Assembly: GCF_017052465.1 (NCBI RefSeq)
Contig: NZ_JAFHKT010000145.1
Span: 186,001-250,000, forward strand
DNA length: 64,000 nt
Direction of reading: 5' to 3'
Origin: Arthrobacter pascens
GTDB lineage: Bacteria; Actinomycetota; Actinomycetes; Actinomycetales; Micrococcaceae
The translations under genes and the position numbers were made by a program. Below the pieces are notes generated by a model. The model had not been told where the DNA came from and made no database searches. It worked only from the letters and a program-made list of their open reading frames with translations. Positions 14,134 to 31,480 of the stretch are shown here, in pieces. Numbering within the stretch: position 1 is the stretch's first letter; every line of letters starts with the position of its first letter.

Positions 14134-16464
14134 TTATTTTGCGCCTTCCAGCAGCTCTGCGCGAACCGTCTTGGTGGCCGCGACGAGGTTGCGCAGGGAC
14201 TCTTCGGTCTCGGCGTAGCCGCGGGTCTTCAGGCCGCAGTCCGGGTTGACCCAGAGCTGGCGGGACGGGACGTGCTTGACGGCGGTGCTGAGCAGCTCGG
14301 TGACTTCCTGCTCGCCCGGAACGCGCGGCGAGTGGATGTCGTAGACGCCCGGGCCCACACCGCGGCCGAAGCCGTGGGACTCGAGGTCGTGGACAACCTC
14401 CATGCGGGAGCGGGCGGCCTCGATGGAGGTCACGTCCGCGTCCAGTCCGTCGATGGCGTCGATGATCACGCCGAACTCGGAGTAGCACAGGTGCGTGTGG
14501 ATCTGGGTCGCGTCGGCGGCACCGGCGGTGGCCAGGCGGAACGAGTTCACGGACCACTCCAGGTAGGCGGGCTGATCAGCCTTGCGCAGGGGAAGCAGCT
14601 CGCGCAGTGCGGGCTCGTCCACCTGGATAACCTTGATGCCGGCGGCTTCGAGGTCGGCGATTTCGTCGCGCAGGGCCAGGCCGACCTGGTTGGCGGTCTC
14701 GCCCAGCGGCTGGTCATCGCGGACGAAGGACCAGGCCAGGATGGTGACCGGACCGGTGAGCATGCCCTTCATCGGCTTGCTGGTCAGGGACTGGGCGTAC
14801 TCGGCCCAGGCCACCGTGATGGGGGCGCTGCGGGTGACGTCGCCCCACAGGATGGACGGACGGGTGCAGCGTGAGCCGTAGGACTGGACCCAGCCGTGGA
14901 CCGTGACGTCGAAGCCTTCCAGGTTCTCGGCGAAGTACTGGACCATGTCGTTGCGCTCGGGCTCGCCGTGAACCAGGACGTCGTAGCCGAGCTCTTCCTG
15001 CAGCTCCACAACGCGCTTGATCTCGTCCTTCATGAGCTGCTCGTACTGCTCGTTGGTGAGGTCGCCCTTGTTGTTGCGGGCACGGGCCGAACGGATTTCG
15101 GAGGTCTGCGGGAAGGAGCCGATGGTGGTGGTGGGCAGCGGCGGCAGGTGCAGGGCCTCTTCCTGGGCGGCTTCGCGGACCGAGTACTCGGAGCGGTTGA
15201 AGTCGGCGGAGGTCAGGGCCGCGGTGCGGGCCCGGACGTCGGCGCGCTGCACGCCCTCGGCGGCGGCGCGGGACGCGATGATGCGGGTGGCTTCGTCGAT
15301 GGCCGGCTGCACGGCGGCGGCGTCGGTCAGCAGGCCGGCCAGGGTGACGACCTCGACGGCCTTCTGGTCGGCGAAGGCCAGCCAGCTGCGGAGCTGCTCG
15401 GACAGCTGCGCCTCTTCCTCGACATCGTGCGGGACGTGCTGGGTGGAGGTGGAGGTGCTGACGGCCAGCTTGGCGACGGACTTCTTCAGCTCGGCGATCT
15501 TGTCCGCCGAAGCGGCAAGATCGTTGCGCCAGATGTTGTGGCCGTCAACGACGCCGGCAACCAGGGTCTTGGTGCCCAGTGCGGCCAGGGCGGCTGCGGA
15601 GGGAACGGCGCCCTTGAAGACGTCGATGTGCAGGGCGTCGATGTTGGTGGCGGCGAGGGTGCCGAGCTGGCCGTTCAGCGCGCCGTAGGGCGTGGAGACG
15701 AACAGCTGCGGGCGCTGGGCAGCAGCCGAGAGCACCTCGTAGGAGCGGGCAACGGCTGCCTGGATCTCCTCGGCGGAGGTGTCCTGGTCAACCACAAGGG
15801 CCGGCTCGTCGAGCTGGACCCAGCTGGCGCCGGCGGCGGCCAGCTTCTCGAGCAGGGCGGTGTAGACCGGGAGGACGTCCTCGAGGCGGGACAGCGGGCT
15901 GAAGCCGGCGGGGGCGTCGTCGGAAGCCTTGCTCAGCAGCAGGAAGGTGACCGGGCCCACGATGTACGGGCGGGTTTCCACGCCGTTGGCGAGGGCGTAT
16001 TCGAATTCTTCAACGATGCGGTTGGAGGTCAGCGCGAAGTTGGTCTCCGGGCCGATCTCCGGCACGAGGTAGTGGTAGTTGGTGTCGAACCACTTGGTCA
16101 TTTCCAGCGGCTGCTGTTCCTTGTTGCCGCGGGCCAGGGTGAAGTAGCCGTCGATGTCCAGCTGTCCCTCGGCGTTGAGGAGGTTGCCGAAACGGGCCGG
16201 CACGGCGCCGACGTGGGCGGCGGCGTCGAGCACCTGGTCGTAGAAGGAGAACGTGCCCGGAACGGCGGCAGCTTCGGTCAGGCCCAGGCCCTGCAGGCGC
16301 TTCGCGGTGCCCAGCTGGATTTCCTTGGCAGCCGCATCGAGGGCGGCGGCGTCGATCTTGCCGGCCCAGTAGGCTTCGATGGCCTTCTTCAGTTCGCGGC
16401 GGCGGCCGATGCGGGGGTAGCCCAGGATTGAGGCGGACGGGAACGCGGTGTTCTGTTCAGTCAT
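14134..16464 (-). CDS. metE: cobalamin-independent methionine synthase MetE
   Basis: A 776-residue two-barrel enzyme that transfers the methyl group of 5-methyltetrahydropteroyl-triglutamate to homocysteine, making methionine in the cytoplasm. The N-terminus LGYPRIGRRRELKKA and the C-terminal zinc-site residues in HTHLCYSEF (His, Cys) and DCGLKTRG (Cys) are all present. Length is normal for the family. Shine-Dalgarno AAGGAAA precedes the ATG. It follows metF by 52 bp on the same strand, so methyl donor production and use are co-transcribed. No cobalamin riboswitch motif lies in front of the unit, although metE genes in Actinobacteria often have one. Confidence 0.97.
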   Translation of the reverse strand: MTEQNTAFPSASILGYPRIGRRRELKKAIEAYWAGKIDAAALDAAAKEIQLGTAKRLQGLGLTEAAAVPGTFSFYDQVLDAAAHVGAVPARFGNLLNAEGQLDIDGYFTLARGNKEQQPLEMTKWFDTNYHYLVPEIGPETNFALTSNRIVEEFEYALANGVETRPYIVGPVTFLLLSKASDDAPAGFSPLSRLEDVLPVYTALLEKLAAAGASWVQLDEPALVVDQDTSAEEIQAAVARSYEVLSAAAQRPQLFVSTPYGALNGQLGTLAATNIDALHIDVFKGAVPSAAALAALGTKTLVAGVVDGHNIWRNDLAASADKIAELKKSVAKLAVSTSTSTQHVPHDVEEEAQLSEQLRSWLAFADQKAVEVVTLAGLLTDAAAVQPAIDEATRIIASRAAAEGVQRADVRARTAALTSADFNRSEYSVREAAQEEALHLPPLPTTTIGSFPQTSEIRSARARNNKGDLTNEQYEQLMKDEIKRVVELQEELGYDVLVHGEPERNDMVQYFAENLEGFDVTVHGWVQSYGSRCTRPSILWGDVTRSAPITVAWAEYAQSLTSKPMKGMLTGPVTILAWSFVRDDQPLGETANQVGLALRDEIADLEAAGIKVIQVDEPALRELLPLRKADQPAYLEWSVNSFRLATAGAADATQIHTHLCYSEFGVIIDAIDGLDADVTSIEAARSRMEVVHDLESHGFGRGVGPGVYDIHSPRVPGEQEVTELLSTAVKHVPSRQLWVNPDCGLKTRGYAETEESLRNLVAATKTVRAELLEGAK

Positions 16465-16516: not shown

Positions 16517-17482
16517 TCAGCTGGCGAGCTGGCGGCGGGCGAGCGCGTTCAGGCGGCTGGACGAGCGGGCCGGCCGGGCAAGTGACAGCTTGTCCAGCAC
16601 CTCCAGCGCGCTCTGGTGCTCGTTGAACGTGTAAATGTGGAGTCCGGGCGCTCCGGCGTCCAGGGCCGCGTTGGCCAGGTCCACCGTTGCGCTGACGCCG
16701 ATATGGAGCCGTTCGGCGTCGGTATCCGCCGCCGCGAGCCGCTCGATGAGCTCGGGTGCGGGTTCGACGCCGGTCAGCTCGCCGAGGCGCTTGAGCCTCC
16801 GCAGGCTGGTGAGCGGCATGACGCCGGGGATGATCGGGATGGTCACGCCGGCGCGGCGCGCCCTGGTGAGGAGGTCCGCATACTGGTCGGTGTGGAAGAA
16901 CACCTGGGTGATCGCGAAGTCGGCACCTGACCGCTGCTTAGCGAGCAGCACCTCGACGTCGTGGGCCTCGCTGGGCGATTCCGGGTGCCGCGTCGGATAG
17001 GCCGCCACACCAACGGCAACCTTTCCGGCGCACAGCAGGGCCGAGCGCCGCTGCTCCACCCGGCGGATGAGCTCAATGAGGTCCTGGGCGTAGCGCAGAG
17101 ACCCGCTGACCGGTTCGCCGCTGTCCTTGGGCAGGTCGCCGCGGAGGGCTAGGATGCCGCGGACGCCGGCGTCGAGCAGTTCGCCGATGATTTCCGCGAG
17201 CTCCGTCGGTGTGTTGCCAACGCACGTCAGGTGGGCCAGCGGGCGGAGGGTGGTCTCCAGCACCAGGCGGTTGATGAGTTCGACGGCGGTGTTCCGGTTG
17301 GAGCCGCTGGCACCGTAGGTGACCGACACGTAGTCGGGATCGGTGGCTTCCAGTTCCCGGATGGTGGTCCACAGGGTCTCGGCCGCAGCAGGCGAACGCG
17401 GCGGGAACAGCTCATAGGAGAGCGCCACCGGTGCGGTGTCGGAGAGATTTGGATGTGTGTCTATAAGGCTTGGTGGTGACAT
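16517..17482 (-). CDS. metF: 5,10-methylenetetrahydrofolate reductase MetF
   Basis: A 321-residue TIM-barrel flavoenzyme that reduces methylenetetrahydrofolate to methyltetrahydrofolate, the donor used by MetE. Conserved elements include SYELFPPRS near the start, YVSVTYGASGSNR, HLTCVGNT, ILALRGDLP and FAITQVFFHTDQY. AAGGAC lies upstream of the ATG. It heads the metF-metE unit and is preceded by a ~240-nt leader with strong secondary structure, so regulation at the RNA level is likely. Confidence 0.95.
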   Translation of the reverse strand: MSPPSLIDTHPNLSDTAPVALSYELFPPRSPAAAETLWTTIRELEATDPDYVSVTYGASGSNRNTAVELINRLVLETTLRPLAHLTCVGNTPTELAEIIGELLDAGVRGILALRGDLPKDSGEPVSGSLRYAQDLIELIRRVEQRRSALLCAGKVAVGVAAYPTRHPESPSEAHDVEVLLAKQRSGADFAITQVFFHTDQYADLLTRARRAGVTIPIIPGVMPLTSLRRLKRLGELTGVEPAPELIERLAAADTDAERLHIGVSATVDLANAALDAGAPGLHIYTFNEHQSALEVLDKLSLARPARSSSRLNALARRQLAS

Positions 17483-17635
17483 TTGCGTCCTTGGCTATGG
17501 GCCATTGAAGGCTTGACTGCCGTGGCGTGGCCCGTGCAGTTTGCGGTCAATGAATTGAGTTTGGGGAACACGAAACCCACTTCGGCAGGACGCAGCCGCG
17601 ACTGTTACGCCTGAATAGAAGCAGTCCGTGAGCAA

Positions 17636-17715
17636 ATGTCAGGCCCACATGGGGGCACCCACACCCTCCTTGGCGGCCGCATGGCGGCACATCCGCAGCG
17701 GAGGATCGCTGACAC
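17636..17715 (-). ncRNA. structured leader RNA of metF, unassigned class
   Basis: On the minus strand an 80-nt module is closed by GUGUCAG paired to CUGACAU. Within it AUCCUCC pairs with GGAGGGU, enclosing a GCCGC/GCGGC hairpin, and a GCCC/GGGC hairpin follows. Nested stems closed by a basal helix are typical of riboswitch aptamers. I cannot match it to SAM-I, SAM-IV, SAH, cobalamin or THF consensus patterns. The module lies ~150 nt upstream of the metF start. Confidence 0.45.
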
Positions 17716-17736
17716 GTTACCTCGGTAACTTGTATA
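17716..17736 (-). promoter_or_regulatory. metF promoter -10 with overlapping palindrome
   Basis: TATACA on the minus strand (17731-17736) is a plausible -10. Directly downstream, GTTACC-GA-GGTAAC is a perfect palindrome spanning the expected transcription start (17716-17729), a good position for a repressor. No matching -35 is clear, so the promoter itself is tentative. Confidence 0.45.
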
Positions 17737-17887
17737 GAACTCTAGGAGCCGTGCGGGGCCCGTTCAAGTTGGGAATCGAATTAAGACGCATTCTTACGGC
17801 CCCTTGACAGCCCGGCACAGAATATTCTTCGCCGGCCGCCCCTTGGAAGCCCTCCCTTTGGCGCTGGAAGGGGTCTATTCTTTTGCC

Positions 17888-18091
17888 ATGATCCAGCTAC
17901 CAGCCAGCTACCAGGAATATCTTGCCAGACAGGACCAGCACGTTGTTGACACCGTGCGGCCGGTGCTGATGCAGTCAGCAGCTGACCAGCGGCACGGCGT
18001 CCGAGTTGTCTACAACACCGGCGCAACCGGCCATCAGGCACACCTTGATGACACCATTCCCTACGGAACGATCATCGAAGACATCGACTGA
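17888..18091 (+). CDS. small hypothetical protein, 67 aa
   Basis: A 67-residue frame with the ATG at 17888 and GAAGGGG about 14 nt upstream. The sequence is hydrophilic, starting MIQLPASYQEYLARQD and ending in an acidic IIEDID. Third-position G/C bias is good in the second half. I do not recognise a family. It lies between the metF leader and the convergent ROK gene. It could be a genuine small gene of the lineage; coding status is likely but not proven. Confidence 0.5.
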   Translation: MIQLPASYQEYLARQDQHVVDTVRPVLMQSAADQRHGVRVVYNTGATGHQAHLDDTIPYGTIIEDID

Positions 18092-18137
18092 CTGATTCTT
18101 CCGGCAACAGGCGCCGGGCTTCATCACGCCGGCAGCC

Positions 18138-20758: not shown

Positions 20759-20831
20759 TGGAGCTGAGGGGACTCGAACCCCTGACCCCCTGCATGCCAT
20801 GCAGGTGCGCTACCAGCTGCGCCACAGCCCC
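20759..20831 (-). tRNA. tRNA-Ala(GGC), copy 1
   Basis: A 73-nt cloverleaf with acceptor stem GGGGCTG/CAGCTCC, discriminator A, anticodon GGC in the loop of a CTGCA/TGCAG-type stem, and a TTCGAGTCC T-loop. CCA is not encoded. Identical to the copy at 21561-21633. Confidence 0.97.
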
Positions 20832-21560: not shown

Positions 21561-21633
21561 TGGAGCTGAGGGGACTCGAACCCCTGACCCCCTGCATGCC
21601 ATGCAGGTGCGCTACCAGCTGCGCCACAGCCCC
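21561..21633 (-). tRNA. tRNA-Ala(GGC), copy 2
   Basis: Sequence identical over all 73 nt to the copy at 20759-20831, with anticodon GGC, discriminator A and no encoded CCA. It lies ~140 bp downstream of rsfS on the same strand, the usual place for tRNA-Ala in this gene cluster. Confidence 0.97.
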
Positions 21634-29847: not shown

Positions 29848-31398
29848 TCAGCTGTGCAGTCGCGGCGCGTCGAAGAATTCCACTTCGTACCGGGAGGACT
29901 GCCTGAAGGCCGTCAGCATCCGGCTGCGTTCCTCGTCGGATGCCGCGCGCCCCGCTGCGTCGGCGATGCCGATGGCCTGTCTGGTGGCCTCCGCGAAGCC
30001 CTCGTCGGCGTACGTCCGCAACCACTCCGCGTAGGGGTGTCCTTCAGGGGCGCCGGCGTCCAGGAATTCGGCATGCAGGGTCTCCCCCACCTCGGCGTAG
30101 AGCCAGAAGCACGGGAGTACCGCCGCCACCAGCACGGCGTAGCTCCCCGACGCCGACGCCGCCAACAGGTGGTCCACATAGGCTTTGGTGACCGGCCCGA
30201 GCTCCGGCAGCACGCTGCGGGTGCTGAGCCAGCTGCGGTGCAGCTCGGACTCGACCTCGAGGCACTGCTGCGCGGAACGGGCCCAGAACAGCTGCTCGGC
30301 CTCGGTGGGGGCGAGCGCGCTGGCCCGTGCCAGGACGCGCGAATATCCGTTGAGGTAGATGGCGTCCTGTGCAAGGTAGTAGGCGAACTCGTTTTCGGGA
30401 AGCGTGCCTTCAGCCAGCCCGCGGATGAATCCCAGCCCGTAGATCTCGTCGAGATCCGCGGCCGCCTCGGCATGGAGCACGTCCGCAAAGCTGCCTTCAG
30501 GGGCAGCGCCTGTGGACACCAGGTGGTGGAAGTGGTGGACGGGCCCGTTGCCGTGTCCCACCTCGAGCTGCCCGGAGGAGCGGAGGGCCTCCTCCAGCCA
30601 GGGCTTCACGGTGCGGAGCGACAGTTCCCAGTCCCCGAGCCGGGCCTGGGCGGTAGCCATCGCCGAGGACAGGGAACACCCGGTTCCGTGGCTGTTGCGG
30701 GTGGGTACCCGCTCGCCGTCCACCACCACGACGTCCGCAGAAAGGGCGCCGCCCGTATTCACGAGGGCGTCCGGGCAGTCGGCACCATACAGGTGCCCGC
30801 CCTTGACGAGGACGGTGGCCCCCGTCTCGGCGGCCAGCCGTTTGCCCTGCTCCAGCGCGTCCGGCCAGGTGGCGGCCTCCGGCTCCCCCAGCAGCATCGC
30901 AAGCTCGGCGAGGTTGGGAGTGATCAGGTCAGCCAGCGGCAGGAGCTCCCGCAGGGCGGCCTCGGCGGACTCCTGCAGCAGACGGTCCCCGCTCGTCGCC
31001 ACCATAACCGGATCAAGGACGACGACGCCGGGGCGCACCTTCTCCAGCCAGGTCCGAACCGCGGCGATCACCTGTGCGTCGCCCAGCATGCCAATCTTCA
31101 CGGCGTCCACGGCGATGTCGTCGCTGACGGCGGCCAGCTGTGCCGCCAGGAACTCGGCCGGCGGAACGTGCACGGCGCTGACGCCCCGGGTGTTCTGCGC
31201 GGTCAGCGCCGTGATGGCTGCCATGCCGTAGCCTCCGGTGGCAGCGATGCTTTTCAGGTCGGCCTGGATGCCGGCCCCGCCGGACGGATCTGAACCGGCT
31301 ATGGCCAGGACACGGGGAATGCCGCGGGTGGCGGGAACAGCCTCGCCAGGCGCAGGCCGGACATGGTGCAGGGCAGGTAGTGAAGACAAAGAAGACAT
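29848..31398 (-). CDS. thiD: bifunctional ThiD-TenA: HMP(-P) kinase / thiaminase II
   Basis: A 516-residue fusion. Residues ~25-285 are the HMP/HMP-P kinase ThiD (VLAIAGSDPSGGAGIQADLK, VLDPVMVATSGD, LITPNLAE and the catalytic NSHGTGCSLSSA). Residues ~300-510 are TenA, which salvages pyrimidine from degraded thiamine (FIRGLAEGTLPENEFAYYLAQD, CFWLYAEVG and a Glu pair near the end). The fusion couples salvage and phosphorylation of the thiamine pyrimidine. The ATG at 31398 directly abuts the GAAGGG of the TPP riboswitch with no spacing; TTG at 31389, 8 nt further, is an attractive alternative start. Sole gene under this riboswitch. Confidence 0.93.
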   Translation of the reverse strand: MSSLSSLPALHHVRPAPGEAVPATRGIPRVLAIAGSDPSGGAGIQADLKSIAATGGYGMAAITALTAQNTRGVSAVHVPPAEFLAAQLAAVSDDIAVDAVKIGMLGDAQVIAAVRTWLEKVRPGVVVLDPVMVATSGDRLLQESAEAALRELLPLADLITPNLAELAMLLGEPEAATWPDALEQGKRLAAETGATVLVKGGHLYGADCPDALVNTGGALSADVVVVDGERVPTRNSHGTGCSLSSAMATAQARLGDWELSLRTVKPWLEEALRSSGQLEVGHGNGPVHHFHHLVSTGAAPEGSFADVLHAEAAADLDEIYGLGFIRGLAEGTLPENEFAYYLAQDAIYLNGYSRVLARASALAPTEAEQLFWARSAQQCLEVESELHRSWLSTRSVLPELGPVTKAYVDHLLAASASGSYAVLVAAVLPCFWLYAEVGETLHAEFLDAGAPEGHPYAEWLRTYADEGFAEATRQAIGIADAAGRAASDEERSRMLTAFRQSSRYEVEFFDAPRLHS

Positions 31399-31480
31399 CC
31401 CTTCGCCGGTGCTAACCGGTCAGGTTCAACGGGTTTGGATCTCAGCCGGCTCCGTGCGCGGCACCCCGTGTCAGTCCCCC
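31399..31480 (-). ncRNA. TPP riboswitch (THI element)
   Basis: On the minus strand: GGGGUGCC, CUGAGA, ACCCGUUGAACCUGA and GGUUAGCACCGGCGAAGGG, the conserved order of the thiamine pyrophosphate aptamer. The 3' strand of its basal helix contains the Shine-Dalgarno GAAGGG, so ligand binding would directly hide the ribosome site of thiD-tenA. Confidence 0.95.

Follow-up and report, generated by a model that had tools for sequence, protein, structure and literature searches.

The S-adenosylhomocysteine (SAH) riboswitch acts as an ON switch on methionine-cycle genes, methionine synthase genes among them, and in enterobacteria metE is activated in a homocysteine-dependent manner by MetR. Classes of the SAM-VI type are small multi-helix junctions of narrow taxonomic range which control translation. 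In the portion of PMC6800512 that was consulted, the THF-II (folE motif) riboswitch is an RNA class linked to a folate-pathway gene. The element described here, which lies in the leader of metF in Arthrobacter pascens, would resemble the SAH riboswitch in the control of the methionine cycle but has no Rfam match. It shares both genomes and pathway with the SAM-IV riboswitch (RF00634), the model of which does not match the metF leader. From the THF-II riboswitch it differs in gene context, and from the SAM-VI-type classes in gene context and sequence, again with no Rfam match in either case. MetR is a DNA-binding protein whereas the metF element is a leader RNA, although the logic of MetR is the logic that we propose for this leader. 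We regard it as a riboswitch-type leader that appears to be new at class level, the binding of a ligand being putative.

The window, meaning the whole stretch of 64,000 nucleotides that was analyzed, carries metF and metE on the minus strand (Table 1). The best NCBIfam model for the metF product was TIGR00676 (methylenetetrahydrofolate reductase equivalog; E value of 1.8e-76), with a score of 257.1 bits that is below the curated cut-off of 293.7. The leader RNA spans the region from a predicted start near 17732 to the metF ATG at 17482, minus strand, with its conserved core at 17715 to 17636. The sequence-only reading of this DNA had placed the core in the 5' leader of a methionine unit, and this context was borne out by the protein models and by comparison with relatives, metF being directly downstream in 99/99 aligned copies and metE being seen behind metF in 97 of them. 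In a pattern scan of named genomes, metF was found within 500 nt of the motif in 114 of the 117 matches listed, and the remaining three stretches stop 150 to 164 nt past the motif.

Table 1. Features of the metF leader and downstream genes (positions in the window)
Feature	Position	Strand	Remark
-35 box TTGAAC	17762..17767	minus	Sequence pattern
-10 box TAGAGT	17739..17744	minus	Sequence pattern; 17-nt spacer
P0 hairpin GUUAC-CGAG-GUAAC	17716..17729	minus	Predicted 5' end of transcript; adjoins P1
P1 5' strand GUGUCAG	17709..17715	minus	GUCAG constant except one A-to-G change
J1/2 CGA	17706..17708	minus	Constant in 71/71 core sequences; its A doubles as first P2 base
P2 5' strand AUCCUCC	17700..17706	minus	Two-sided changes at 5/6 counted pairs across the family
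P2 terminal loop/extension	17670..17699	minus	Length and sequence vary
P2 3' strand GGAGGGU	17663..17669	minus	From the core alignment
P3 hairpin GUGGG-UGCC-CCCAU	17649..17662	minus	Nearly invariant; weakly supported
J3/1 GUGGGC	17643..17648	minus	Conserved; in the alternative state, could pair with metF codons 2-4
P1 3' strand CUGAC	17638..17642	minus	Constant in 71/71
Switching strand GACAUUUGC	17632..17640	minus	P1 end and tail; complementary to metF start site
3' domain closed by CACGGA/UUCGUG	17569..17630	minus	Contains inner stems; throughout the genus, diverged or reduced elsewhere
metF Shine-Dalgarno AAGGA	17488..17492	minus	Read from sequence
Start-site complement GCAAAUGUC	17478..17486	minus	Contains metF AUG (17482-17480)
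metF	16517..17482	minus	Methylenetetrahydrofolate reductase family; ATG at 17482
metE	14134..16464	minus	Cobalamin-independent methionine synthase; NCBIfam NF003556 and TIGR01371, both above cut-off

The basal helix of the earlier reading (GUGUCAG, 17715 to 17709, with CUGACAU, 17642 to 17636) and its nested helix (AUCCUCC, 17706 to 17700, with GGAGGGU, 17669 to 17663) were found on the minus strand as it had described them. Of its two small hairpins, GCCGC..GCGGC is a variable extension of P2, the loop of which differs in length among relatives, consisting of a few bases in many and being much longer in others. Likewise, the 80-nt module that had been proposed is a real conserved core, but the functional element is larger and adds the 5' hairpin P0, the 3' domain and the metF start site. 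The element as such was therefore correctly recognized, while its expression platform and 3' domain had gone unseen. Inside the genus, the 3' domain has no pairs with two-sided change.

The core was aligned across the family in 71 rows and compared with 500 shuffles. In this alignment 99.4% of cells were paired and 72 cells carried two-sided changes (shuffle mean, 22 ± 5.5), values that were reached by 0/500 shuffles in each case, and sliding the helix partners abolished the pairing signal. No excess was found in the count of pairs with two-sided change (5 versus 4.2 in shuffles, 210/500 reaching 5) or in further pair types (15 versus 13.7, 51/500 reaching 15). The covarying pairs that had been put forward as a check on the element were found in P2 (5/6 pairs), and the changes in P0 were compensating too. 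P1 (GUCAG/CUGAC) was nearly invariant, being constant but for one G-U, and showed no covariation. P3, together with a possible pseudoknot in which GCC of the P3 loop may pair with GGC/GGU of J3/1, varied only between U-A and U-G and between G-C and G-U, with pairing broken in three rows for P3 and in one row for the pseudoknot. P1, P3 and the pseudoknot are thus indicated by conservation and not by covariation. Within the genus alone (30 rows) there were no two-sided changes, since the core is invariant there. Folding energy was uninformative, with a z value of -0.24 for the 80-mer (68/200 shuffles folded equally well or better) and other z values of -1.75 for the minus strand and -0.21 for the opposite strand. 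Comparison among relatives, rather than folding energy, indicates that the structured RNA is real: a conserved structured leader domain of the riboswitch kind, with pair-keeping changes in P2 and P0 and with P1 invariant. Throughout, counts across loci come from related sequences and not from independent samples.

The same alignments bear on a leader-peptide attenuator, in which an upstream ORF such as GUG GGU GCC CCC AUG UGG GCC UGA would be translated, as might be supposed from the GGAGG just ahead of GUG codons in the window's genus. This candidate was contradicted and rejected, and we consider it extremely improbable, as neither the ORF frame, nor its codons, nor the GGAGG is conserved. 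As P2 covaries, some relatives (for instance L061) have lost the GGAGG; the frame is broken in L115, L117 and L128; and the Met/Trp codons are altered in L083, L126 and L063.

Scanning of the window at the Rfam 15 gathering thresholds revealed no family at the element. At E values up to 5 across 17300 to 18100 (801 nt) there was again nothing at the element, the one sub-threshold match being antisense at 17593 to 17626, outside the 80 nt, and at E values up to 1 in 14 diverse relatives there was nothing except a tRNA elsewhere in one of them. On these three results a known Rfam class was rejected. The Rfam search that had been suggested therefore returned no significant match, and the claim of the sequence-only reading that the known SAM, SAH, cobalamin and THF signatures are missing stands. 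Among individual models, SAM-IV (RF00634) gave no match at the metF leader and matched elsewhere in 14/14 genomes; SAM (RF00162) gave none at the element and none in the window's genome, G000, at E values of ≤0.001, while 5/14 genomes have one; and cobalamin (RF00174) gave none at the element or in any of the 14 genomes. For SAH and THF, no match to any Rfam 15 family was obtained at the element. A highly diverged member of the SAM, SAH, THF or cobalamin classes, missed by the Rfam models, would suit a gene context compatible with SAM, SAH or folate sensing, but we judge it improbable in view of the empty scans at relaxed E values in the window and the 14 relatives and of the separate presence of SAM-IV in all 14 genomes.

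Elsewhere in the window, a TPP riboswitch was matched above the gathering threshold at 31381 to 31478 on the minus strand (60.4 bits). Two tRNA genes with equal scores lie about 800 bp apart on the minus strand, at 20759 to 20831 and 21561 to 21633. On the opposite strand, the ORFs across these genes encode one and the same GAEGTRTPDPLHAMQVRYQLRHSP peptide and are likely to be spurious.

In the parts consulted of RNA-discovery papers and reviews (PMC11109978, PMC8632094 and PMC2864571, and likewise PMC10043782, PMC7266159 and PMC6429828), no metF/metE RNA motif of this kind was found; an earlier unnamed listing in supplementary motif lists is possible. The phrases "homocysteine riboswitch" and "methyltetrahydrofolate riboswitch" were not found in the portions of the literature searched, in which "methionine riboswitch" does occur.

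A DNA search with the leader matched its own genome and 31/36 other genomes of the same genus, and 0/22 genomes from other families of the order. Of the five same-genus genomes without the leader, four had no metF match at all and one (G018) had just distant homologues (≤34% identity). These five genomes (G005, G008, G018, G023 and G034) have neither this metF nor a match to the MetH activation domain. A covariance model built from 30 aligned leaders was then applied to 295 genomes taken as Micrococcaceae by record names, and matched 91 of them at E values of ≤1 and 90 at <1e-3 once the doubtful G068 (18.3 bits) was left out. When compared by eye, all 90 RNA-bearing genomes had a metF protein match (E value of ≤1e-40). 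Another 80 family genomes had a metF match and no RNA match, and their metF was mostly more distant. The exception was a set of eight metF genes of genus g52, which at 60 to 64% identity overlap the low end of the RNA-bearing metF genes. These eight genomes gave no match to model R1 and no credible match to model R2 within about 0.7 kb and 5 kb around or upstream of metF (best, 14.4 bits); the RNA may have been lost in them, or may have diverged beyond the reach of the models.

The aligned set consists of the 99 loci, out of 100 submitted, that the model matched. The pattern scan of named genomes yielded at least 117 stretches, for which 80 titles were examined. Among the matches listed, the titles were Arthrobacter, Pseudarthrobacter, Paenarthrobacter, Sinomonas, Acaricomes, Haematomicrobium, Psychromicrobium and Specibacter, along with a Renibacterium MAG and a Micrococcaceae MAG; five of the titled genera were confirmed as Micrococcaceae by taxonomy look-up. 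Sporosarcina beigongshangi was the sole title from outside the Arthrobacter group among the 80. The record concerned (L230, NZ_JADHDY010000014.1, strain REN13) carries the Micrococcaceae element, and its name looks wrong.

Beyond the family, searches at the level of the order (396 genomes) and the class (345 genomes) gave no convincing copy. Weak matches of up to 31.5 bits numbered 15 in the order search, 14 of them in other families and one (G114) within the family, and the class search added a single outside match of 27.6 bits. In the stretches examined, none of these 16 was accompanied by a credible metF or metE. Six of them (L146, L148, L149, L152, L153 and L322) have in common a coding-like stretch, WVWxPPWGP, recognized by eye, and four (L145, L150, L156 and L157) overlap long open frames; the other six were judged by the presence of metF or metE alone. 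The center of L157 (G538, another family of the order) holds a near-match, GGGTCAGCGA...CCCTGACATTCG, within the long open frame and not before metF, probably by chance.

Upstream of P1, a sigma-70-like pattern (TTGnnn-(17 or 18)-TAnnnT) was present in 99/99 loci compared with 56/1980 shuffled flanks (2.8%), and the end of the -10 box sits 22 to 27 nt ahead of P1 in 95/99 loci. This near-constant distance, seen by comparison of the loci, suggests that the transcript starts near 17732, at the foot of P0, as predicted from the sequence. A 5-bp P0 hairpin adjoining P1 was detected by script in 77/99 loci, in the forms GUUAC/GUAAC, GUUGC/GCAAC and GCUAC/GUAGC. Farther upstream, above the promoter, conserved DNA on the minus strand at 17777 to 17789 and 17820 to 17832 contains GCGTCTTAATTCG-like and GAA-N5-TTC-like sequences, and a TAATTC element lies upstream of the promoter in 62/99 relatives. 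It is possible that this conserved DNA represents transcription-factor sites besides the RNA.

Downstream in the leader, the 3' strand of P1 with its tail reads CUGACAUUUGC and the metF start reads GCAAAUGUC, and the two are complementary. Over the 99 loci, the score of the best tail-to-start helix averaged 21.9; shuffled start regions scored 13.0 (SD of 2.2) and a metF coding sequence control 13.8 (SD of 2.1; n = 396). The 99th shuffle percentile was reached by 87/99 loci. One locus, L094, had no clear start helix, and in L095 the best helix was elsewhere, yet folding gave a start-site pairing of 0.98. GCAAAUGUC was absent from 12/12 sampled upstream regions of distant-clade metF genes without the RNA and from all eight g52 metF regions without the core, indicating that it is not a general feature of metF. 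Compensating changes were observed in L072 and L073, where UUUGU occurs with ACAAAUGUC, and in five g52 loci, where UUCGUAC(G) is matched by (C)GUACGAA ahead of the Shine-Dalgarno sequence.

For a fixed-register test and for ensemble folding, start sites were chosen by motif, which found them in 98/99 loci: 92 coincided with an in-frame metF start, that of L083 was out of frame with its alignment, and five were of the shifted UUCGUAC type. In the fixed register (12 positions including flanks), two-sided changes were counted in 20 cells (shuffle mean, 17.3; 117/500 reaching 20), and pairing was 79.3% against 78.0% (2/500 reaching it). As the start helix varies little, its formal covariation is weak. 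When 98 full leaders were folded as ensembles, the start-site pairing probability was >0.5 in 96 and >0.9 in 92, and that of P1 was >0.5 in none. P1 exceeded 0.5 in 11/98 with the RNA up to the start site and in 22/98 with the sensing domain alone. Even the sensing domain by itself is thus predicted to hold P1 weakly, so that P1 may need a ligand, the pseudoknot or a protein, or may be less important than the proposed model implies. One of the two exceptions in start-site pairing was the leader of the window itself, which has a long P2 insert and gave a start-site pairing of 0.12 and a P1 of 0.01. In several minimum-energy structures, GUGGG of J3/1 paired with metF codons 2 to 4.

Two competing states are therefore predicted by folding, in which GACAUUUGC pairs with P1 or with the start site and the state with the buried start is preferred, within the limits that the two pairings are not strictly exclusive in five g52 loci and that this platform is not dominant in the window's copy. 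A stable start-site helix predicted from energy alone in 96/98 leaders might also be that of a ligand-free device, either an RNA thermometer or a fixed translational damping, with the helix melted or opened by ribosomes. We find this quite unlikely, because the near-invariant UGUGGGUGCCCCCAUGUGGG and CGA segments and the P1-P2-P3 junction would be left unexplained.

The relation between the two helices also bears on direction. In the five g52 loci the start-site pairing uses the tail only (UUCGUAC) and does not overlap CUGAC, so that the start helix could coexist with P1. An OFF arrangement can be drawn from this, in which P1, closed by ligand, stacks on the tail:start-site helix and the bound form has a buried AUG, and OFF control by SAM or methionine suits the methionine pathway. 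However, the best helix begins with GACAUUU in 91/99 loci and so takes up the GAC required for P1. Among the 88 loci where metF aligns from residue 1, 85 have UCN as codon 2, as expected if GAC:GUC pairing is selected. Forcing both helices, moreover, costs about 11 (L110) and 17 (L121) kcal/mol over the free ensemble, before ligand energy. We consider the OFF arrangement unlikely.

Other sequences were noted ahead of metF genes without the RNA. In L323 to L327 (g52), with no detectable core, ACGAAGAGG is kept ahead of the start codon and looks like a relic of the start-site complement. Distant-clade metF genes (L331, L334, L336, L337, L339, L340 and L342) often have a different short hairpin, of the CUCCCUCG...CGAGGAG type, which by eye pairs the Shine-Dalgarno sequence and is perhaps another metF leader element.

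The explanation that we favor, and hold to be probable, is a new orphan riboswitch class for translational control of metF-metE, in which ligand would close P1 and free the AUG (ON). Transcription would begin just ahead of P0, and the sensing domain would be a three-way core of P1, the covarying P2, and P3 with the possible loop-J3/1 pseudoknot. The switching strand GACAUUUGC would have two partners, the 5' strand of P1, closing the sensing domain, and GCAAAUGUC, burying the AUG. In the ligand-free form, start-site pairing would prevail and translation would be off; upon binding, P1 would be closed, the AUG freed and translation switched on. Binding, the ligand and the ON direction are our inference. 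As the ground state is predicted to be buried and P1, by itself, to be weak, closure of the junction by a ligand would be expected to switch translation on. The riboswitch-like character claimed in the earlier reading is supported by the lack of an Rfam match, the covariation of P2 and the metF-metE context, with small-molecule binding itself putative.

The element was found as one site per matched genome, at one operon. This, with its restriction to one family among the genomes searched, would also fit the same RNA being read by a protein, either a regulator or MetF/MetE acting on their own message, and the conserved unpaired and hairpin sequences could serve protein recognition as readily as metabolite binding. 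Metabolite aptamers have conserved joining regions around a covarying junction, and the conservation across such regions here is more like theirs, so that we regard reading by a protein as rather unlikely.

If a metabolite is bound, it would probably be one of the methionine cycle or of folate metabolism: homocysteine, SAH or a methyl-folate. SAM-IV riboswitches occur elsewhere in 14/14 genomes checked, and the window's genome has three. Of these, the first precedes metX and the second a cysteine-desulfurase-like gene (SufS subfamily model, with a score under the cut-off); the third is located some 730 nt upstream of an O-succinylhomoserine sulfhydrylase (metZ-type) gene, which is the nearest ORF of ≥200 aa in the forward direction there. 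By pathway logic, homocysteine, SAH or folate is an attractive ligand, because the final steps are under an RNA other than SAM-IV. We tentatively suggest, as a possibility that we would not put higher, the first natural riboswitch class for homocysteine (or methyl-folate), an ON switch, with the homocysteine-making genes separately under SAM-IV. Build-up of the substrate would then close P1 and free the metF start codon, making the RNA a counterpart of MetR. A logic based on B12 was rejected: no cobalamin riboswitch was found in 14/14 genomes, and as the MetH activation domain (PF02965) was present in just 3/14, the presence of the RNA does not follow MetH.

As far as the literature was searched, a riboswitch for homocysteine or a methyl-folate would have no precedent. 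As a candidate orphan riboswitch, the leader has a single gene target and many natural variants, its core is defined at about 60 nt, and the expression platform proposed for it is concrete and testable. Should the proposed direction be correct, the last step of methionine synthesis would be governed by an ON switch of the substrate type, and one pathway would be split between two RNA sensors, with SAM-IV acting on other genes. The first codons of metF (Met-Ser-Pro) may themselves be shaped by RNA pairing.
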